This document shows positions 30,220 through 44,456 of a DNA stretch of 64,000 nt, one piece after another. Where the stretch lies: NCBI GenBank assembly GCA_002104985.1, contig MCGO01000025.1, positions 459,974 through 523,973 on the forward strand. The letters are read 5' to 3'. The notes beneath the pieces are model-generated. The model did not search any database. It had not been told where the DNA came from and saw nothing but the letters and a program-made list of their open reading frames with translations. Within the stretch, counting starts at the first letter, position 1; each line of letters starts with the position of its first letter. A program made the translations under genes and the position numbers. Source of the DNA: Rhizoclosmatium globosum. Its lineage: Eukaryota > Chytridiomycota > Chytridiomycetes > Chytridiales > Chytriomycetaceae.

Positions 30220-31132
30220 ATGATACGCCATCCTATCCTGGTGTTTGCTATCGTGATCGCCATCGCGGTGTTATCAGCAGCGGATACATCTACAGAATGC
30301 CAGGCGTTGAACTCTTTCAATTCTCAGCTTTTTAGCAACACAGATGCACCGTCATGTCTTAACTATAACTTTCAGAATGGAAACAGTGTCATGTAAGTAT
30401 ACAAGATTGAAGCAATCATTATGCTAACGAGAAAGTTAAGTGACATAAAATCTACAAATGGAGAGAACATTGACTCAATGTAAGCAATAGAAAAACAAAG
30501 CATTCTTTAACAATTCTGTGCGTAGCAAAATTACAGGATTTGAGCTGACATGGCAACTTCTCCTTTTTCAAAGTGACAAATTTCCACTCCTCACTTCGCT
30601 TGACTTATCCAACAACAAACTTTCTGGCGCTGTTACTTCCTCGACAAGTCAATACTTTGGCTGTGGTCTAAAGTTATTCGACCTTTCACACAACCTTTTG
30701 ACATCAGATTATGTTTGCAATGATGGCATTTATACGAAAACCAATAGCTGGATTGATTATAATTGTTTCGCTGATTATGCAGACTTTGGACTGACCTTAA
30801 ATCCCGCATGCCCGTTTTTCTGCGATGATTGCGGGCTGCTGACAACTTGGTGGCCTCAAGTCTTCACATATAACTCATCCAAAACATATCATTGCCTGAG
30901 AGTTAACATAACCACAACGGACTCCACCGCGTGAGCTTTCAATTCTGTCGATTTTTCCCCACTGATACTTACTTCATATAGCATTACTAAGTCAAAAAAT
31001 CCGCACACTTCTATAAGTACACTGTAAGCTATCTTTTTCTACATTTGAATGACTTACGAAAGTGCAGCGTCGCATCTGGATTTGGTTTAAGTGGATCCTT
31101 GCCTGACATCACACAATTGAAAGACTTGGAAT
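30220..31132 (+). pseudogene. LRR surface protein gene, 5' part (split by retroelement)
   Basis: The start at 30220 opens a signal peptide (MIRHPILVFAIVIAIAVLSA) followed by a Cys-containing cap (ECQALNSF, SCLNYNF). Several very short exons follow: 30220-30392, one ending at about 30479, and a longer one ending at about 30930. They splice to NGNSVIDIKSTNGENIDS, then KITGFELTWQL, FPLLTSLDLSNNKLSGAV and LKLFDLSHNLLTSDY, plant-like leucine-rich repeats. The next small exon leads to VASGFGLSGSLPDITQL, KDLE. Translation is cut at GAAT (31,129-31,132), where the LTR element begins. The reading frame resumes exactly in phase at 43,156 with the same GAAT, giving KDLE-SLDLSKNNFAGTL across the empty site. 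The intact allele would encode a GPI-anchored LRR cell-surface protein. Confidence 0.85.
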
Positions 31133-31838
31133 TGTGACCGGGATACCGGCTCGGCCGTCGCCAAGCACGTCAGGTTGTCCATGTCCGACGTAACGGTACC
31201 TAGCACGTAGTCAATAGTATCTCACTCATACATAAAAAAGGAAAACGTCACCTTATCACCGATCCCCTCATCTCGGATGCGCCAGTGGAAGTCCCCTCCT
31301 TCCCACAGTCCGTCCAGTAGGTCCAAGCCCACATTACAGCGAATCCCTGTCGCAAGCCGTCCTGTTCGCATCCGCAGTCGATCACTGTCCTCGGTCCACA
31401 TCCACCGAACCCGTCCAGTGATCCCCGGTTGATCGTTGATCAGCTCCCTATTCCCGTAGCGCGGGTCTGGGTAGGTGGGAAACCATCCAGCTTTGAAACC
31501 CGTACTAACCCTCCTGTCCTTACATGCCTGCAGTCATGGTGCCTCCCTTCCATCCCTTACAGGAGGTCAACCCGACGCTCAGGCTAGACACTACGCTCAA
31601 AAGGGGGAGAAACGTACCTAGGCCACCTCGCTCAAGTATGTCGGGTGGCGCCCCGTCCTGTTCCAGACGCCCTCCACCAACGAAGCCCGTTCGCACGCTG
31701 CTTTGTTCACAAGGTAGTTTCTATTTTTACATTTTCCCCTTCCGGTGCTTTCTCACACAGCCACCGGATAATAAACAAATAAATAAAGAAAGAATAAAAG
31801 AGAAGTCCGAAACCCTCCCTCCGTCAGATCCCCTGACA
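31133..31838 (-). repeat. LTR (3' LTR of the retroelement), complete, 706 bp
   Basis: Complete copy. Up to 31,708 it matches 38,244-38,819, and from 31,709 it matches 43,026-43,155. The two LTRs are the same length (576 + 130 bp). By eye I see one substitution, G at 31,341 against A at 38,452. That points to a recent insertion. Confidence 0.92.
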
Positions 31839-32130: not shown

Positions 32131-35100
32131 CTACTTGCGGGTAGCCTCATCCTCTTTTTGATTCCTCTTAAGTAATCTTAAAGCTCTTTGTTCAACGGCG
32201 TCGGTAACTACAGGTGGTTGGATAATCTTTTCTACCGGTTTGGCTTTTGTCTTTCTTTTCTGCTGTTGGACTTCAGTTGGAGTCGTGTCAATCTCAAGTG
32301 GTATTGCTAAGTCACCACTAACTTTCTCAGACATTCGCTCTTTCATCTTTTTGTATTCATTCCATAAAGGCCTATACTTTCTTTTATTTTGTTCCCAGAA
32401 GTCACTTATAACTTCCAAGGGCATATCCTCTTCTCGTTGCCAATGGCGTTCCTTTCGTCCCCACATCTCCCAACTGGTGAGATACTCAAAGGAGGTTGGA
32501 TTGACAGTCTTTTTAACATCTAAGATTTTATCAATAATTAATTTTGGGTTATCAATGTCTTCTTGACTAAAAGTAGGGTCAATCTTTGCAAGTAGCCAAG
32601 GGCTTGCGCCGGATGCATATTGTTGTTTGTGGGTAGGTCTTCTTGTTAGCTTCTCATCGTCTAACCATTTCTTGTACTCAGTCTCAAAGTCATCACCTGC
32701 TAATTTCATGGCATCCTCTGCACTGTCAACAGGTACTCGCGCTGTGAATGGTCTGAGTCGACTAGCATGCACTGTTCTAACAACAATTTGGTTACCAGGG
32801 AATCGTTCAACGACTCTATATTTTGTTTGAGCGTCTCCTTCCGCTCGGTCAACAATTCTAACAGGTCCAACCCATCGTGGAATAAACTTCTTTCCAACTT
32901 TAAGGCGTTGCGCTTCAGCAGTAAGGGGAACCGCCAACCAGGCGCGCTCTCCTACTCTAAATTCATGAGAAGGGTCAACATTACTATTTGTTTGGGTTGC
33001 ATACTTTTCTTGTTCTTTATTAACATTATCTATAATGACAGATCTAGAAGCTTGTAGGCCTCTTACTAATCTCTCAGTAAATGATTTGATGTCTTCTGGT
33101 GAGGTTTCGCCAACCACCGCTACATCATCAAAGTCACTGTCCATCTCGTTCACTAAAGTAATGGGAGTTTCATCATTTGTGGGTTCAAAGTCATTAATTA
33201 TAAAAGTTTGGATAGGAGCTTCATCAAATAAGAAGGATTCACCAACTGTAAAGAATTGAGTGGCTCCATCCCACAAAGGGACACCTCTCACTACAACAAA
33301 GTCTTTAGTAGTTGCATCAACTAAAGGTATGATGTAATCCACATATGTTTTAGTGGTAAAGTTATAGGCGCGGTACATACAGCGTAAAATACCTGGTGTT
33401 CCCAAGAACAGCTGAGGTTCAGGGTTATCTTCAGGGAGACTATCAGGTAAGTTGTTTCCTATTTGTATTAAGTTCTTTCGGGAGAAGACATTTATTATTC
33501 TTTTTGCAGGTTTGTTCTCAAGTACAGTTCTGGCTTTGCCATCCGCTGTTGCCGCTCCAATGCGGAAGTTCCCAATTCTTGGGATATCTGTCCCATCTTC
33601 TAATTTAAAAGTATATGGAACTGGGTAGTCTGTTCGATAATCTTGTTTTGGGTGTAAGTTGTGAATGAGGACTATTGCATCTAAGTTGTATTTTTCAAAC
33701 AGTTTCCTCAATACGCGTTGTGGGTTATATTCTGTTTCGTATCCATAAAGATGTTTGGATAGTTTACTTTGAATAAACTGTCGAAAGGATCGGTAGGACG
33801 CGATGGCTATTTTAGGGAGTTTTTCCGGGAATGGTTCTTCAACAGTTTCTTGGGAAGTCATAGTGAGTGTCTGTGGGGTGGGGTCAAGAGAAGTTGGTTT
33901 TTCAGTAAGGTCTGCCTCACAATCAGGTAGGACTTTTTCAATGTCAATGGGGTTAATTCCCAGAAGTAAGTCAGAAGGTAATCGCGCGTCAAATCCATGG
34001 AACATAAAGAATGGTGTTTCTCCTGTAGTGCCATGGGCATGAGTTCTATACGCAAATAAAACATAAGGGAGTATGGTTTCCCAATCATCAAAAGTGTATT
34101 TATTAATGTAATGTCTTATTCGTTCTGATAAGTTTTTGATAAGTCGCTCGACCATCCCATTTGCTCTGGGCCAGTAGGGACTGGTGAACGTCTTATAAAA
34201 TCCAAATCTCCTGGAGAGTTGCAACATAAGATTGCTGTTGAAGGGTTCTCCACCGTCAGAATGTAAGTAAACAGGGACGCCGGTATGGCAGAATACTTTC
34301 TCTACTAACGCCTCAGCGACTGTTTTGGCTTTAAGGTCCGGTATTGGGATGGCTTCTGCCCATTTAGTGAAAGAGTCTACAACAACCATGATGTATTTGT
34401 TACCTGTTTTCTCATCTGGTTTTGGTGGTTGCATAAAGTCAACAAACACTCTTTCCCAAGGGTGTTTTCCAATTGGAATTGGAAAGACATATCCAGCTTT
34501 TTGCCGGAAATCTTTGGCAGTATTACATTCAGGACAAGATTTTATTTCATTTTCTAAATCGTTCTTTACTGTTGGCCACCAATAGCGATCAAGGAGGGGT
34601 GTATAAACTTTCTCAAACCCATAATGTCCAGCAAACAGGTCTGAGTGGAGGAGATCCAGGATTTCTCGTCGCATGTTGTCTGGTACACATAACGTCACGC
34701 GCGCTGGTTGCTTTCGAACTTGTTGTTTTGAGGCGTTATGGATTTTGAAAAGGAGTCCATTGCTGTCGACGATGAGGTCCTTTGACAATGCAATTAGGTT
34801 ATCTTTTGTTAAAGTTGTTTCACCCTCCTTTGGTTCAGGTACTGTACCATACTGGCGAAATCTTAAAAGTGGGCCAAAGTGGGTATCGGCGAGTTGAAGT
34901 TCACAGATTTCCTTAACTGTTTTACCTGAATTCGGTAATGTTATGTTAAGATTTGTTTCAAAGTTATCAATGTTTACATCTGAACAGAAGGTATAGTATT
35001 GAGGATTCTCTTTATTTGTCCATGATGTTCTGTCAATCAAAATCGATTTATCATTTCCGTGGAAAGTTGTGTGTAACTGCAGGGCGACGTGGTCGCTTTC

Positions 35101-37403
35101 CCATTTTCTTGAGTCGATCCTCACGTCGAAGTGTTTCTTATCAATCCTATTGTCTATAAGTATGTGGTCAACTCTCCAAAAAGGGTATACTTTATTATCA
35201 TATGCTTTTAAAAGCCAAGTAGAGCCATGAGGTTCTGGGTGTTTTACTCGAAAGCCGTCGTGGAAGTGTTCAGTCATTGATTTGAACCAAATTTGTTCTT
35301 CGGCGCTGATAGTCGAACCGAAACAATCCACCAAGTTTTCTTCGACGGCAAACGGCATCACATCTTTCTCCGAATCTGGGGCAATGTTTAAGTCGCCCAT
35401 AAGCAGAACAAAGTGTTTCTTACGTAGGTGTAGGCAGTGTCGTTTTAATTTTTCAAGGAAGTTTATTTTAAATAGATGTCTTTTCTCATCTCTATTCCCA
35501 CTTGGTGCGTAACAGTTGACAATAGCAAAGTCGCCGAGTGTAATGGTAAGGATACGACCCTCCGGGTCAGCTTCCTCCATCGCGCCGTACGAGTGAATCT
35601 CGCCTTTCAAGTCCTTTCTCCATAGAGTGGCTACTCCGTAATGTCCCGAAAGGTTGTCGCTTATAGCGCAACTCCAATTTGGAAGGGTTTGCATTTGTGA
35701 AAGGAGTTTTGTGGACTTGCGTCCCAGTCGCGTCTCTTGAAAACATATGACGCTTCCTCCTAACATGTCTAAGTATCGTTCCATAATTGTAGCCTCGGTC
35801 TGTTCTTCATTTATTTCGGTATTACTCTTCTTCCAAGCTGTGTATGAATTACTAAAACCATTTAGGTTCTGAGACGTGAAGTTCAGACTTGGGCATCGCG
35901 TTCCTTCGAGTGGTTCGCAGTGTTTCTTATAGGCCTCGAAAGATGGGATCTTTTTATTGACAGCACGTAGCTGGTCGTTCTTCTTTTGTAGTTTCTTCCA
36001 TATTCCTCGCATCGTATCACCAAGTGAGGTAAATTTGTTGATTGTTTCGTTTGCAAGTTTAATAAAAGCAGTTTTATTGTTTTGAGATAAAGCTTGAACC
36101 AATGTTGTTGGTTCTGTTTGAGTACCAACGTTCTCAAATTCTTTTTCTTTTCGTCCTAAATATACTCTTGATAGAGTGTCGGCAACAATTTGCGTGTCGC
36201 CGGGAACATGGACTAGTGTCAAGTCGTAATGCGAAAGGGCATAGGCCCATCTTGAGAACCGTCCGGTAAGTGCTCCATTTTTGAAAAGGCTTAATAAGGC
36301 GCTATGATCGGTTTCGATAGTCGCCGGTTGGTTGAAGATATATCGATCGAAACAGGTTACTGCCCATATCACCGCGAGCCCTTCGCGATCCGTATTTGAG
36401 TAACGTTTTTCGACGTCTGTAAGTGTTCTAGATATAAATGCGACCGGTTTACGGTCAGTTTTCTTGTTCGATTCTCCTTGAATAAAAAGAGCTCCGCCAA
36501 GTCCCGTGCCGGACGCATCGCACTCAATCACTAATTTATCACCTTCTTTTGGAATTGTCATAAGCGAATCCTTGCAAAGTTCGCGTATAAGTGTATCGAA
36601 GGCGTGTTGACACCAAGGGTCCCAAATAAACTTTACACCGTCTTTTATTAGGTTATAAAGAGGTGCTGATATATTAGCAAAATCTTTAATAAAACGTCGG
36701 AAGTATTGCGCGAACCCTAAGAATCGTTGCATTTTGGAGACGCTTGTTGGCCGTTCCCAATTTCGTAGGTCCTGCATTTTACTTGGATCTTTTCTGAGGC
36801 CGTCCTCGGAGATTACATGTCCTAAGAAAGGGAGTGAAGTATGGAAGAGTTTACATTTACTTGGTTTCAATTTTAAGTTGAACTGTTCGAGTCTACTGAA
36901 AATCTCTTCTAAGTGTTTGAAGTGTTCGTCAACCGAGTCACTAAATATTATAATGTCGTCGACGTAAACGGTAAATACCCATTTAAAACCAAAAAGGACT
37001 CGATTTGCACGTTGGGATGTTGGGAGTGCGTTAATCAATCCGAAAGGCGTAGCTTAAGTCTTCAGTGATGGGGATTTGTCAAACCACCGAGAGTTACCAC
37101 AATGTGGTCTTTAAGCATTGCTGTCCTTCCTAAACCTTCAAAAAGGGGAATCTTTGCACCTGGGTTGAATTTAATTTCATGTGGTGGTAGTCTTTCCGTA
37201 CCAGTCACGATGCCTTTGCGGAAGACATTCGCGAAGCTTCGTATCATAGCGTCCATTCGAGCGAGAACATTGTCGCCAAAAGTTCTAGAAATATGGGAGT
37301 GTGGAATCTATTCCCAGATTTCATCGTCCGTCAATGTACTTGCCGGCGGTAGATAATTGAGATGATCTTCCCGACTCTTATCTTTTGTTGGTATAGAGTT
37401 CAT
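32131..37403 (-). pseudogene. Retroelement polyprotein: RT (deleted) - RNase H - APE-like endonuclease - integrase - chromodomain
   Basis: The main frame is open from 37038 to 32131 (1635 residues). Residues 1-60 are the RT palm with VYVDDIIIFS; the thumb follows. RNase H occupies about 168-291 (IECDASGTGLGGAL, TDREGLAVIWA, ETDHSALLSLF). An exonuclease/endonuclease/phosphatase domain fills about 385-655. Integrase follows, with its zinc-binding His/Cys (H798, H805, C835, C838) and catalytic D867, D928 and E964. GPY/F is at about 1385-1430 and a chromodomain at about 1498-1552 (IIDKILDVKK, YLTSWEMWGRKERHWQREED). Upstream in other frames are MNSIPTKDKSREDH, an in-frame TAG at 37,308-37,310, then FANVFRKGIVTGTERLPPHE, the RT start. 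RT jumps from VVTLGGL to TPFGLINA near 37,045-37,085, so roughly 100 residues of fingers and palm are gone. This copy cannot make active RT. Confidence 0.9.
35076..35886 (-). other. Endonuclease/exonuclease/phosphatase (APE/ExoIII-like) domain inside the gypsy polyprotein
   Basis: Residues about 385-655 of the polyprotein carry the complete EEP signature. FTSQNLNGFSN is the first strand with its Asn. VICFQETRLG has the metal-binding Glu435. FAIVNCYAPSGN holds Tyr510. FVLLMGDLNIAP holds Asp549 and Asn551. PFWRVDHILI holds Asp624/His625, and KWESDHVALQL ends with the Ser-Asp-His triad at 648-650. No stop or frame change separates it from RNase H upstream or integrase downstream. LINE elements use such a domain to nick target DNA. 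Its presence in an integrase-bearing LTR element is unexpected. Confidence 0.88.
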
Positions 37404-38243: not shown

Positions 38244-38819
38244 TGTGACCGGGATACCGGCTCGGCCGTCGCCAAGCACGTCAGGTTGTCCATGTCCGAC
38301 GTAACGGTACCTAGCACGTAGTCAATAGTATCTCACTCATACATAAAAAAGGAAAACGTCACCTTATCACCGATCCCCTCATCTCGGATGCGCCAGTGGA
38401 AGTCCCCTCCTTCCCACAGTCCGTCCAGTAGGTCCAAGCCCACATTACAGCAAATCCCTGTCGCAAGCCGTCCTGTTCGCATCCGCAGTCGATCACTGTC
38501 CTCGGTCCACATCCACCGAACCCGTCCAGTGATCCCCGGTTGATCGTTGATCAGCTCCCTATTCCCGTAGCGCGGGTCTGGGTAGGTGGGAAACCATCCA
38601 GCTTTGAAACCCGTACTAACCCTCCTGTCCTTACATGCCTGCAGTCATGGTGCCTCCCTTCCATCCCTTACAGGAGGTCAACCCGACGCTCAGGCTAGAC
38701 ACTACGCTCAAAAGGGGGAGAAACGTACCTAGGCCACCTCGCTCAAGTATGTCGGGTGGCGCCCCGTCCTGTTCCAGACGCCCTCCACCAACGAAGCCCG
38801 TTCGCACGCTGCTTTGTTC
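38244..38819 (-). repeat. LTR (5' LTR), first 576 bp, interrupted
   Basis: Matches 31,133-31,708. It breaks off after CTTTGTTC, where the DNA transposon begins. The LTR resumes at 43,026 after a second copy of CTTTGTTC. Confidence 0.92.
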
Positions 38820-41800
38820 GGGCTGGTGGATATGGCGCCGGCCTCCGGCCGGCGCCATATCCGACAGCTCGGAAAGCAACTCCGACAAACCTCCGCCGCG
38901 CAGCGGCGGAGGTTCTGTCGGGTCCTTTGCAGTTATCTCGAAATAATCGAATATCATTGAAACTGTCGGGTCCTTAGCAGTTATCTCGAAATGATCGAAT
39001 ATCATTGAAACAATTTAAGTTTATTTGCGAATAAAACGTAAAATAGATGATTGTAGGTTGTCGCGCTTCTTGTTCATGCAACCACTCTGAGAGCCATCAC
39101 AAGCCTTCTTCTTTGAAACACAGTAATCGCAAGACGACTGTTTGGTGCGCTTCGCTGTTGATAACAACGTAGAGCCTTTTCGCTTGTCAACTGAGCTGGG
39201 TTCAGCGGCGTTCGAATCAACTGGTGGAGCTGCTGTAGGAACTGTAACATTGCTCGAATCCTCTTGCTCTTGCTGCGGTGGTTGTGATAGTTGTGAGGAA
39301 ACAATATCTGGTGGAATCAATGGAGGCCGAATAATGGGGGATAACGTTGCATCTTGAGGGACGATGGACTTTTTGGCATTTCGACTATCAACAAGTTAAC
39401 TATATAATTAACTGAACGAACAATAATGATCACCTGTATTTAACGCGTAATGCTTCTTTGTTGATTCTGCTGTAGGCTGGATTCAAAGTGACAGCATAAT
39501 CTCGAACAGCCTTCCAATCTTTCAATCCGGTCGGAAATTGTTCATCAACGAACGCAGATATTAAACTCCAATGTGCAGAAGATATTGAAGAAGTTATTGA
39601 AGCCATTGGAGTTGTTGATGAGTTAACCGGCGATGGGGAAGGAAGTGGAATGGATGGTTCCATCGTCAGAGTATGATTCAATAACGGGTTAGGGACTCGA
39701 ACAGCGGCAGTTGAAGCAGGCAGAGGGGGCAAATGGTATGGATGGTGAGATTCACTCGTAAGTAAGCTCGTGAAGTAATTGTCCAATTCATCAGGAGCAC
39801 CAAACACTTCTTCCGATGTATTGGTACACAATGGTGTCTGCGGCATTGACAGAGTGGTAGCATTGGAATCACTGGCAATTCCCATTGATTTTTGGGTTCG
39901 ACGGCTCCTTTGTTGCAGCTTATTGTTCCAGAGAGTCCTCAAATGAGTTTCAGACCGCGAGAAAATGTTATCACAAGAACATGCGGCAAAGTTGTAAAGA
40001 ACAATGTATTCCTTGACTCGATTTGGTATGGATACTTCGGACAAAATTTCGAAGAACTTGGTGACCAAGTATTCCTCTTCCGGAGTAAGATTTACCGCTT
40101 TTGCAGGTTTTGGAGGCCGAAAGTTAAACAACTTGGGCATATCAGGCAACACCAACGAAGATACACGAACAGTTTGCTTTCGGTTGACAGCTGAAAAAGA
40201 TCGCGGGAAAATCTGGAGAGAGCTGTTCAAGTTGTTGGAAACAACATGATTGTAGAGAATGGTTGTGACAAACGGCGAATCCGACCAAGTAGCATGAGCA
40301 GACAGTTGCTCTTCGCGAACACGTTGAAGAAGTGTAATTTCATGAGCATTCCAGCTGATTTGTGATTCAACACTATCATACTCAATTTGAAGCTGCTTCA
40401 GAATAACATCCTTGTCGAACGTCACAGAAGTTGCCACGTGGGTCATGGCGTTTGCAAACAGCCTTTCATATCCATTTCGTTGAGAATCGCTGATTGATGC
40501 GGACTCGATGGCAAGCTGAGACGGTCGTGACGCAATAGGCAGTACGCCAGTGAACTTAAACTGCCAAACGTCCTTGTTTGACATTCCTTCAGGACGATAT
40601 CTCATAAACTTTGATGGTGGACGCTTCGACATCAGCGTTAAAGCAAAGGTTGTTTGTTCGGAATCAACAACAAGCTGATTTGTAGTCACGGCCGCACGCA
40701 TTAAATCATGGAGCGGGACGCGATTTAATTTTGGTATTCTTGCAAATCTTTCGCCCGCTGACAGGTTTACCTGTGAAGGAAATAGATGAGCTTCATCCTC
40801 CAAAATGTTACGTATCTTACATAAACAACGTGAATCAACATTAACCTCAGTCCCACTCGTATTGAGACAGAACGACGAGGTAAAATAAAGTTCAACAGAC
40901 TATTGAATGACTCACTGATACTTGTCTCGATTTTGCTACGTGTGATACCATTTTCTTCGAATGTATTTCCGTCAATAGGCGAGAGGTCTCCAAGCCAAAT
41001 ATGCCTCAAACAGTTCAGAAAAGTGTTATCCCACTCGGATTGAGTGCATGAAATCCAGTCTTGTGGCGTTTCCAAGATAAACTTCCTCAGGCCATAGAAC
41101 ATAATTGAACGTTCCCATAGATGTCGGGGCTCGGAATACAGCTTTTTCGTCAATTCTGAAGAGAACTGGTCGCGGTGTTCTGCTTTAATTTTCATATTTA
41201 GGCGTTGCATCAAGTGCTTTGGGTCTTGTGTCACACGCCATCTACAGAAGAATCAGCCAATTTAAACGAAAGGGAAAACAATACCTGTCACCAAAAATAT
41301 CCTTCAATATCGCCCGATAGCTATTGGCGTTGTCACAGCAGATGATTCCAATCTGCGTCGGATCAAGTTCTGGAAAATCAACCACATCAGCCATCAAAGC
41401 TTCTCGTAAATCAGATGGAATTTGAACTTCAGGGGGCCCTTGCATGCCATCGTCTAATATAACAGGATGTTGTGGCGACACGTCATTTTGAGACGTGGAC
41501 GCAAATCCTTGTTCAGACAACGATGTCTCCGAATCTATTTCGTCTGCAATACCATCAAACTCATACTCGTCTTCGTCAAAATTGAGATCAGCTGTTAAAT
41601 ATTGAATTAGTATCATTATTGAAGGAACAAGAGAGAAGAAAAGTAGAAAGAAACATTCATACCAAGTACAGCAGGCTGCGAGGAATTACAGATGTTGATG
41701 TCATAAACAGATTTGAAGGCAGCTCCAATTTCTTCGTGGTTTTCAGATTTAACGAAACAGATGTGCAGCACTTGTCCGATTTCATTGAGAAGGACAAGAA

Positions 41801-43017
41801 CCATTCGACATTCTCTCAATGTTACAGGGTGACCATTTGCATCAGTGGTGGTTCGCTTGAGATATATACGCATACGCTTGGCAAACGTGCATGTTGCATC
41901 AACAGAGATTTTGTGTTTAACTTCTGCAGTTTCCATCAACAGATTGGCAGCCCATTCGTAATCTTTCGTATACTCGAGCCAAAACTCGGTTAACGTCTTG
42001 GGGTCAGGAACTGCGTGTTTCAAGAGGTAATGTTCAATACTGATGGCCTGAGGCAATAAAGCAGCTAAAAACAATGACGTCAAACACAACTTTGCAGGAG
42101 GAATGTTTGAATACGAACAAGGATTAGCGGACCGGGCGTCTTTGCACATCGCTGCAAATATCTCCAATAAATCATAATAGCGACTTGCGCGAAACGATTC
42201 GACTTCTTTAATTCCTTGCGCAAGGCCAGCGGGAGAACGAATTGACGCGTCGATGATTTGAGCCGCAAAGTCTTTGGAGAATCCTGACTTCAACGTGAAG
42301 ATGTATGGGAGGCTTTTGATGATACGGGGATGAGAAGCAGCAATAGATTCAAGAAAGGATTCCGAGAGTGTACTGAAATAACGACCAGTTTTGTCTGCAG
42401 CATTAAGGTCATCTTCGTCATTTTCGTGGTCCTATTTAACGTTAACTAACAACAACTAACCCAGGGCTCTCATACCTGCTTAGAACGGCTCTCTTTCTTC
42501 ATTACCGAGCACTCATATGCTGCGTAAATGATCTCCGTAACATGATTAATATCATGTACTTGTCGGAACTTGTATTTCGAGAGGCTCGGTGAACATGGGC
42601 ATGCACGGCGCTGGCAGGCGGGTCTGCGACCAGGCAGGACTACTTCTGGACACCAAACGAAGTAAGGAGTGCCATGTAGTTGAGCTGCGGTACTTTCGAG
42701 TCGAGTTTCTGGTCTCACGACGACAGGGGGAAATTGGTTCGTCTTGAAGGCCAATTGGAAGCGCTCTTTTGCACGGTTTGTGCGATGCTTGTTTTCTTCT
42801 TTTTCGCTTGAGCCTTTGCCCGTCGTTGCGTTGGAAGGAGCTCCAACCATTCGGACAATCAAGTTTTTTCCCGTCTTCTCTTTCTTCTTCTCTCTCTGGC
42901 TGTTCTCTCACTGTGTTGGGAAGGGAAAAATTTTTGCGGTCTGCCTACAGACATCACGTGGTTGTTCGTTCGCGAACGTTCGCGAACACTGACGACCGGC
43001 AGCATATCCAGCGCCCT
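38820..43017 (-). mobile_element. TIR DNA transposon (4.2 kb) nested in the retroelement LTR
   Basis: The insertion is delimited exactly by comparison with the intact LTR. CTTTGTTC is present once there and twice here (38,812-38,819 and 43,018-43,025), an 8-bp target duplication. The ends are imperfect inverted repeats: GGGCTGGTGGATATGGCGCC on the left and, on the minus strand from the right, AGGGCGCTGGATATGCTGCC. The left end folds into a 15-bp perfect hairpin (GATATGGCGCCGGCC with its complement) and a second one of CCTCCGCCGC. A roughly 50-bp direct repeat (TGTCGGGTCCTT...TCATTGAAAC) follows at 38,914-39,010. The right end has two TTCGCGAA palindromes. A spliced gene on the minus strand fills the interior. 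Superfamily is unresolved; 8-bp duplications occur in several DDE families. Confidence 0.88.
39021..42862 (-). CDS. Putative DDE-type transposase
   Basis: Seven exons with good splice joints encode about 1,100 residues. The N terminus is basic, then holds a Cys-rich motif (YFVWCPEVVLPGRRPACQRR, ACPCSP) and YAAYECSVMKK, which look like zinc ligands. The central part has HKISVDATCTFAKRMRIYLK (candidate first Asp), then GIICCDNANSYRAILKDIFG (second Asp). WRVTQDPKHLMQRLN follows directly across an intron, and SISESFNSLLNFILPRR may offer the acidic third residue. The C-terminal half is less conserved (PPSKFMRYRPEG, FNFRPPKPAKAVNL). It ends with another cysteine cluster (SCDYCVSKKKACDGSQSGC) before the stop at 39,021. 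All exons are open, so the gene could be functional. The DDE reading is inferred from motif order; the exact family (MULE-like, KDZ-like or other) is not settled. It fills the TIR element. Confidence 0.7.
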
Positions 43018-43025
43018 CTTTGTTC

Positions 43026-43155
43026 ACAAGGTAGTTTCTATTTTTACATTTTCCCCTTCCGGTGCTTTCTCACACAGCCACCGGATAATAAACAAATAAA
43101 TAAAGAAAGAATAAAAGAGAAGTCCGAAACCCTCCCTCCGTCAGATCCCCTGACA
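43026..43155 (-). repeat. LTR (5' LTR), last 130 bp
   Basis: Continues the interrupted LTR after the transposon. It matches 31,709-31,838 and ends CCCTGACA, followed by the target duplication GAAT at 43,156-43,159. Confidence 0.92.
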
Positions 43156-44456
43156 GAATCACTTGATTTGTCCAAGAATAATTTCGCCGGAACACTAAAT
43201 GCATCAATCACATCATACTTGCTTGGTCTCTCTGATTTGTGAGTTTCGTTTGGATATGTTCAATTCAACCTTTTCTGATGTGATTTGTCGCAAAGCAATC
43301 TTACGAACAATCTTTTGACTGGAAATATTCCTGCCGAGCTTAAGGGAAACACAGCCAGTCTCAATCTCAACTGTTTCGACAATAGTCAAGAATTTGGGTT
43401 GAAAAACAGGGATGATTGCCCAGGCACAGCAACAACTTCATTAAGTGTGATTAGCTCGACGATTGTGCCATCCAGTCCAACGTACACAAATAGCGTATCG
43501 TCTACGATTATTGCTGCAAGTACAATACAGAGCACTGGCAACGTAAACAGCTTGTCAGATGTTGCGCATTCCGCATTGGTCGTTTCAACTACAGAGATTC
43601 CTGCCAGCGACACACTCACCGGATCCACGAGATCGACTAATCCGTCAAGTACTGCACCTACAACCTTGGATGATAAAACAAAGGCTTCTGCCACGGCCTT
43701 GTCTACAGATACTCCGCACGCCTCATTGCCATCGTCAGTCGCTCCTGCCACAACCCTCCCAACTGCAACGCCTGCATCCACAGTCGTTGCGTGTGCTGAT
43801 CAAATACCCTCGGCAGTACTCACGTCTATTGCGTCCGGACCGATTCCAACGGCAAATCTGATGCAAAAGTATTCTGGTGATGCGACAAAGATCATCGCAA
43901 CGTTGAACAAGCTGAGAGAGAGCAGCTGAACCGAGGGTAACAGTCACACACTCTGTGTCCTGGTCAGCTATGACTCCTCTCCTCTCAACGTCACTTGCAC
44001 AATTTGGCACAAACAAACTCTATATCTGTTTCCGTGGTACCAAAAAGACGCGAGGATCAGATCTCTACTGGATTTGTGGTTGTAAATGGAGTTGGAGTGG
44101 CCAACAAACCAGTCGTGGCAGCAGATACTCCAACTGCGATTGTGGCTTCAACCTCATTGGCTACTTCAACCTCGGTCTCGACATTAACCATATCTAAATC
44201 CCCGTCTCCCACTTCTTCCACTTCTTCCACTTCCCTCTTGATCACTTCAACTAATCCTGTTACAACGACCCAAACGCCAACAACACTGTTTATTGAGTCT
44301 GTCACACCAATCACTTCTATTACTGCCACTGGTTTGTCTGGGAGTACTGCCATCACAAAATCGACCACTGTTAAAGTCAATGTCGTTGTCAATGGTATCA
44401 CGCCAAGATCTGTTTCCATTTTCATCTTGGGTATCCTTCTTTCTCTCAGTCTCTAG
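43156..44456 (+). pseudogene. LRR surface protein gene, 3' part
   Basis: The exon resumes in phase (SLDLSKNNFAGTLNASITSY) and splices over an intron at about 43,240-43,298 to NLTNNLLTGNIPAELKG, the last leucine-rich repeat. A Ser/Thr-rich stalk follows. After TKIIATLNKLRE the reading passes through three frames: EPRVTVTHSVSWSAMTPL in the second, then SISVSVVPKRREDQISTGFV in the third. That needs one-base changes near 43,915-43,927 and near 44,005-44,015. The C terminus (TVKVNVVVNGITPRS, VSIFILGILLSLSL) is a GPI-type tail. The gene is therefore broken by the nested elements and perhaps also by frameshifts. The latter may be sequence errors. Confidence 0.75.

Follow-up and report, generated by a model that had tools for sequence, protein, structure and literature searches.

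In this study, we examined a 64,000-nucleotide stretch of the Rhizoclosmatium globosum genome (contig MCGO01000025.1), here called the window, and a long terminal repeat (LTR) retrotransposon on its minus strand whose Pol frame includes a nuclease domain of the endonuclease/exonuclease/phosphatase (EEP) superfamily. By Pfam, the order within this frame is RVT_1 (reverse transcriptase, RT; C-terminal part only), RNase H, Exo_endo_phos, Integrase_H2C2 and rve. The initial annotation had described a single frame running from RT through RNase H, EEP and integrase to a chromodomain; the frame, RNase H, EEP and integrase stand as described, whereas the RT is only a remnant and the chromodomain-like stretch falls below the Pfam cut-off (12.9-14.9 bits against 25.1, with 23.8 for the environmental metagenome protein P0009), which leaves the chromovirus label given there tentative.

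32131 to 37053, minus strand: Pol frame, stop to stop, 1640 codons (1635 counted from the first start codon)
36811 to 36984, minus strand: RT, C-terminal remnant (Pfam)
36226 to 36624, minus strand: RNase H (Pfam)
35059 to 35916, minus strand: ExoIII/APE1-type EEP domain, extent used in the analysis (Pfam match 35089-35871)
34513 to 34686, minus strand: integrase zinc domain, H2C2 (Pfam)
34171 to 34464, minus strand: integrase core, rve (Pfam); DDE invariant
32944 to 33816, minus strand: conserved region between integrase and C-terminus
32392 to 32538, minus strand: chromodomain-like stretch, under the Pfam cut-off
37062 to 37307, minus strand: remnant in another frame that aligns with relatives and by eye resembles the stretch preceding the RT core

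An ExoIII-type domain in the Pol of an LTR element

The domain matches PF03372 (Exo_endo_phos) over residues 390-650 (E 3e-9, 37.4 bits; cut-off 24.5) and scores 106.2 bits with TIGR00633 (xth, Exodeoxyribonuclease III), over the NCBIfam cut-off of 99.05, which was passed by seven of the eight element EEPs tested. The fold predicted for it is that of ExoIII/APE1. All of the active-site residues named in the initial annotation are present at the positions given there, namely E435, Y510, GDLN 548-551, D624 and SDH 648-650, which in the numbering of our alignment A1 are E61, Y136, G174-N177, D250 and S274-H276; across all 12 element families aligned there, E435, Y510, the D and N of GDLN, D624 and SDH do not vary. 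Judged from profile scores, aligned residues and predicted fold, the window EEP is a structurally complete ExoIII/APE1-type (xth) nuclease domain. A long interspersed nuclear element (LINE) as its source, as had been suggested, was not borne out, since the profile scores favour the ExoIII/xth type, the LINE endonuclease profile being much weaker on this domain than the ExoIII profile (8e-16 vs 1e-49). We likewise rejected an identity of the element itself as an APE-type LINE, given its LTRs, Ty3-like RT-RNase H and integrase.

31133 to 31838, minus strand: 3' LTR, 706 bp, TG...CA
38244 to 38819, minus strand: 5' LTR, first piece
43018 to 43155, minus strand: 5' LTR, second piece
31129 to 31132, no strand: 4-bp target duplication GAAT, left copy
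43156 to 43159, no strand: 4-bp target duplication GAAT, right copy
38820 to 43017, no strand: nested insertion splitting the 5' LTR, with an 8-bp duplication CTTTGTTC at 38812-38819 and 43018-43025

Paired LTRs with TG...CA ends and a short target duplication identify the window element as an LTR retrotransposon. Its LTR pieces are 99.8% identical (about 1 base differing in 576), and TG...CA ends with 4-bp target duplications were found in both copies examined. The integrase is complete, with its DDE residues invariant in the alignment, and the Ty3/gypsy order of RT, RNase H and integrase is seen in L009, which belongs to the family of the window copy, and in the window copy with its truncated RT. 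The window copy is defective: relative to L009, L010 and L027 its RT lacks about 265 bp, and too little space is left ahead of the RT remnant for gag and protease. Between the region of this remnant and the LTR, it shares sequence with L027 and none with L009, in which RT is preceded by a zinc knuckle and by a stretch that weakly matches protease (16.2 bits; cut-off 24.3).

The nested 4.2-kb insertion has imperfect inverted ends, and Pfam finds no match in either of the longer frames it contains, 39433-40899 and 40770-41234 (minus). A short frame at 39021-39395 (minus) carries the cysteine pattern CDYCVSKKKACDGSQSGC, which from its motif we take to resemble fungal zinc clusters.

Spread, relatives and origin of the domain

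The genome searched comprises 56.9 Mb in 420 contigs. The EEP region, used as query, matched it at 55 places, and in eight cases the match lay in an open frame of more than 2500 codons. Loci were counted by comparing where RNase H, the integrase zinc domain and the EEP match, with two further EEP places from the EEP search, and the counts are lower bounds: the EEP lies between RNase H and integrase in at least 39 of the 60 RNase H loci detected, and upstream of RT in at least four. We distinguish three groups. In group A, RT, RNase H, EEP and integrase are found by Pfam in one frame in L009, L018, L019, L024 and L025; in L012 the RT was not recognised by Pfam, and in L026 the frame stops after the EEP. 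The EEPs of group A families are 38-47% identical to that of the window (alignment A1), and LTR pairs at 100% identity measure 759 bp (L018) and 706 bp (L027). Group B (L028, L032, L033) has the order RT, RNase H, EEP and integrase zinc domain, with EEPs 23-25% identical to the window; its rve core is unmatched by Pfam, yet the DDE residues align. In group C (L029, L030, L031; contigs C368, C383, C146) EEP, RT, RNase H and integrase zinc domain follow one another in one frame, and rve is over the cut-off in L030 only. Groups B and C are LTR elements as well, the stretch after pol recurring ahead of the same element at 98-100% identity to the query (contigs C13, C203, C383, C301, C146, C347 and C411). 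The YxDD box of RT reads YVDD or YIDD in group A, FVDD in B, and FVDD, FIDD or LQDD in C. As a separate observation, TGGGGGCCCAAC stands beside the 5' LTR in L018 and L027, a possible primer site common to two diverged families.

Other genomic copies and families with the same fusion and an intact RT, for which the initial annotation had proposed to look, are thus present. It had also held that relatives lacking the domain, together with signs of a secondary LINE insertion, would speak against the fusion; the EEP-less copy L037 (C384:147901-151500, of the L026/L039 family) owes its state to a 1172-bp deletion, and traces of a LINE insertion were not observed. The EEP is a standing part of Pol in one clade of Ty3/gypsy-like LTR retrotransposons, and a domain of this kind also occurs in another LTR-element clade of this genome, which is divergent from the first.

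Beyond this genome, the EEP profile matched proteins of two Chytridiomycetes, a partial one from Obelidium mucronatum and another from Blyttiomyces sp. JEL0837. The metagenome protein P0009 carries RNase H (13-117), EEP (290-551), H2C2 (679-736) and rve (752-848), and a second environmental metagenome protein, P0010, carries EEP, H2C2 and rve; in an integrase tree both cluster with group A (100/99), separate from 14 rows without EEP and six rows of groups B and C. After its integrase, P0009 shows a weak aspartic-protease-like match at residues 1009-1086 (16.6 bits; cut-off 28.2). The EEP part of the window Pol matched none of 378 candidates in a protein collection. Viral contigs searched with the EEP gave two and one loci at 28-29% identity, and in a viral structure library no row among the 50 matches listed was named as a retroelement, the names being those of standalone viral proteins, or none.

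Trees of the EEP and of RT-RNase H each placed group A in one clade and groups B and C in another, with the same grouping when integrase was added to the latter, and the RTs of groups B and C form a clade apart from the remaining Ty3/gypsy rows. One clade of all EEP-bearing elements was not rejected by RT (p 0.215 with L037 left out; 0.208 with three long rows also dropped; 0.149 with integrase added); an apparent rejection (p 0.0002) proved to be an artefact of counting the EEP-deleted L037 as an element without EEP. In the EEP tree a single origin was not rejected (p 0.34), and group C as one clade came near rejection (p 0.057). An earlier EEP tree had also included L044 and L045 (open frames of 1675 and 1196 codons, PF14529 match under the cut-off), the presumed LINE rows of the TIGR00633 comparison: L044 grouped with a host row, L045 with both of these, and L048 fell next to group A on weak support (87/32). 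These are long branches and were left out of the EEP tree to which the two p values belong. Because groups B and C hold the EEP at different Pol positions, at least one relocation or extra gain is implied, and the trees are consistent with a history that may have involved one gain with relocation, or several gains.

In the search for a host source, a bacterial ExoIII query gave 47 matches in the genome and TIGR00633 gave 67. Of the latter, 35 exceed the cut-off, although C411 does so only together with its neighbours in frame, and 32 lie under it. Each of the 35 is followed on its own strand, 304-2986 bp downstream, by an integrase zinc domain. The genome yielded no standalone gene of ExoIII/APE1 type scoring over the curated cut-off, but an intron-broken one could hide among the 32 weaker matches; these include fragments, the endonucleases of the presumed LINEs and, at C113:179074, what is probably an exon of APE2, which was matched by an APE2 query too. 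C368:92077 turned out to be a group C copy that is truncated. Endonuclease IV is present. The suggestion that the EEP was captured from the present host is not supported, for want of such a standalone gene.

Proposed role of the domain and its rivals

Within the EEP, comparison of L018 with L019 gave proportions of nonsynonymous and synonymous differences (pN and pS) of 0.11 and 0.76, and that of L024 with L026 gave 0.18 and 0.81; between related families synonymous differences are near saturation and nonsynonymous ones fewer. With few changes to count, dN/dS between the window and L009 is about 0.10.

LTR elements rely largely on the host to repair their cDNA and clean up its ends. The reading we prefer, with roughly even confidence, is that the EEP acts on the element's own cDNA, cleaning, trimming or repairing it between RNase H digestion and integration. 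It would work in cis on freshly made cDNA, once RNase H has acted and ahead of integrase, incising abasic lesions or removing blocked or extra 3' ends, or residual RNA; integrase would then meet clean CA-3'OH ends, and the element would thereby be independent of the host apurinic/apyrimidinic (AP) endonuclease for this clean-up of ends and lesions. The predicted activity is that of an AP-endonuclease, a 3'-phosphodiesterase/exonuclease or an RNA:DNA-hybrid nuclease, not the nicking of chosen targets. Since the integrase is complete and the ends and 4-bp duplications are ordinary in both copies, target cutting is accounted for, which would leave the element's own cDNA as the likeliest remaining substrate. 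Processing of cDNA had been named in the initial annotation too; its bolder idea, that the element could have two ways of attacking target DNA, finds no support, for the same reasons.

Several observations weigh against this role in the cDNA. No EEP was found at 17 of the 60 RNase H loci (11 with integrase, six with neither), so other LTR elements of the genome manage without it. In group C the EEP is upstream of RT, and its position therefore does not reveal the timing of its action. The EEP of L030 reaches only 68.0 bits, under the xth cut-off, and the Trp of group A's WRxD motif is not kept in groups B and C (alignment A1), so that specificity may differ there. The pN of the EEP exceeds that of RT in seven of seven pairs and that of integrase in seven of eight; together with the loss by deletion in L037, this faster change means that the EEP may not be indispensable. 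A host tRNA matching the putative primer site TGGGGGCCCAAC was not found in the genome with one tRNA-shaped pattern, whose two matches look by eye like the element's own leader.

Among the alternatives, it is rather unlikely that the nuclease acts on the RNA side, on the template, a tRNA or self-primer, or host RNA, as a supplement to RNase H. ExoIII enzymes can degrade RNA in hybrids, the EEP adjoins RNase H in groups A and B, and two diverged families have the putative primer site in common, though no host tRNA matched it; against this, the element already has an RNase H, and in group C the EEP does not adjoin it. That the EEP persists as a passenger, a DNA-binding or scaffold module whose cleavage is dispensable, would accord with its faster change than RT, the deletion copy and the missing Trp, but a mere binding module would have no need of the catalytic residues, which do not vary in any of the 12 divergent families, and we consider this improbable. 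About equally improbable is a target-side endonuclease that nicks the chromosome, alone or with integrase, as a second, LINE-like entry: the shared superfamily, the catalytically complete active site and the place ahead of RT in group C recall LINEs, yet the domain is of ExoIII rather than LINE type, and a complete integrase goes with TG...CA ends and 4-bp duplications in both copies. Nested insertions do happen in the window element (38820-43017), but an artefact of nested LINE insertion or misassembly is hardly conceivable given the same fusion in many contigs and families of the genome and in metagenome proteins; such repetition shows that the EEP is not a secondary insertion.

Beyond the cDNA role itself, we put forward a wider and distinctly tentative proposal, that an ExoIII-type nuclease is obligatory for a separate functional class of chytrid LTR retroelements, in which it would do a step between RNase H and integrase that others leave to the host, and that it either entered these elements repeatedly or changed place within Pol, its copies now being the genome's only recognisable ExoIII-type genes. 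A repair-type nuclease in Pol, kept across divergent families and seen in metagenomes, offers a defined enzyme for studying the fate of cDNA from RNase H digestion to integration. Another consequence is that an APE-type domain beside RT need not signify a LINE, which matters for automatic annotation.

Comparison with known systems

In sequence, predicted fold, catalytic residues and score over the curated cut-off, the domain resembles Exodeoxyribonuclease III/APE1 (xth), a free-standing repair enzyme, which here is part of a retroelement polyprotein. APE-type LINEs, such as LINE-1 with its ORF2p, share with it the EEP superfamily and an RT-encoding retroelement, and differ from the present element in that it has LTRs, Ty3-like RT-RNase H and integrase. 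The chromodomain and DnaQ-like exonuclease are well-known accessory domains of LTR elements (PMC6338049), and fungal 'complex transposons' with additional domains arising from multiple insertions have been described (PMC3248453). In the openly licensed PMC literature, in the sections consulted, we found no description of an ExoIII inside the Pol of an LTR element (Repbase and subscription journals lie outside this scope). An LTR element with a captured nuclease is thus of a known kind, and the ExoIII type inside Pol appears new within the literature searched.

Among animal LTR elements, some Kuafuorterviruses carry Exo_endo_phos, sporadically and perhaps host-derived, and so resemble the present elements (PMC11673190); their YXDD box reads IADD, VADD or LADD, in contrast to the Y(V/I)DD, FVDD, FIDD and LQDD found here. 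Symbiodinium retrotransposons carrying DNMT have also acquired enzymes, with Exo_endo_phos among the domains listed; they are of LINE and tyrosine-recombinase type, and the consulted sections of that paper do not mention an EEP inside the Pol of an integrase-bearing element (PMC5890265). The closest precedent in these sources is Juno and Vesta, LTR retrotransposons of bdelloid rotifers with a DEDDy (DnaQ-like) exonuclease in ORF3 that was taken up on at least two occasions, with signs of exchange between types of element and catalytic activity not demonstrated (PMC5408684). Both they and the present elements are LTR retrotransposons with an acquired nuclease, whose activity here is likewise predicted; theirs belongs to another superfamily and occupies a separate ORF3, whereas the nuclease described here is of ExoIII type and forms part of Pol, where it either separates RNase H from integrase or precedes RT.

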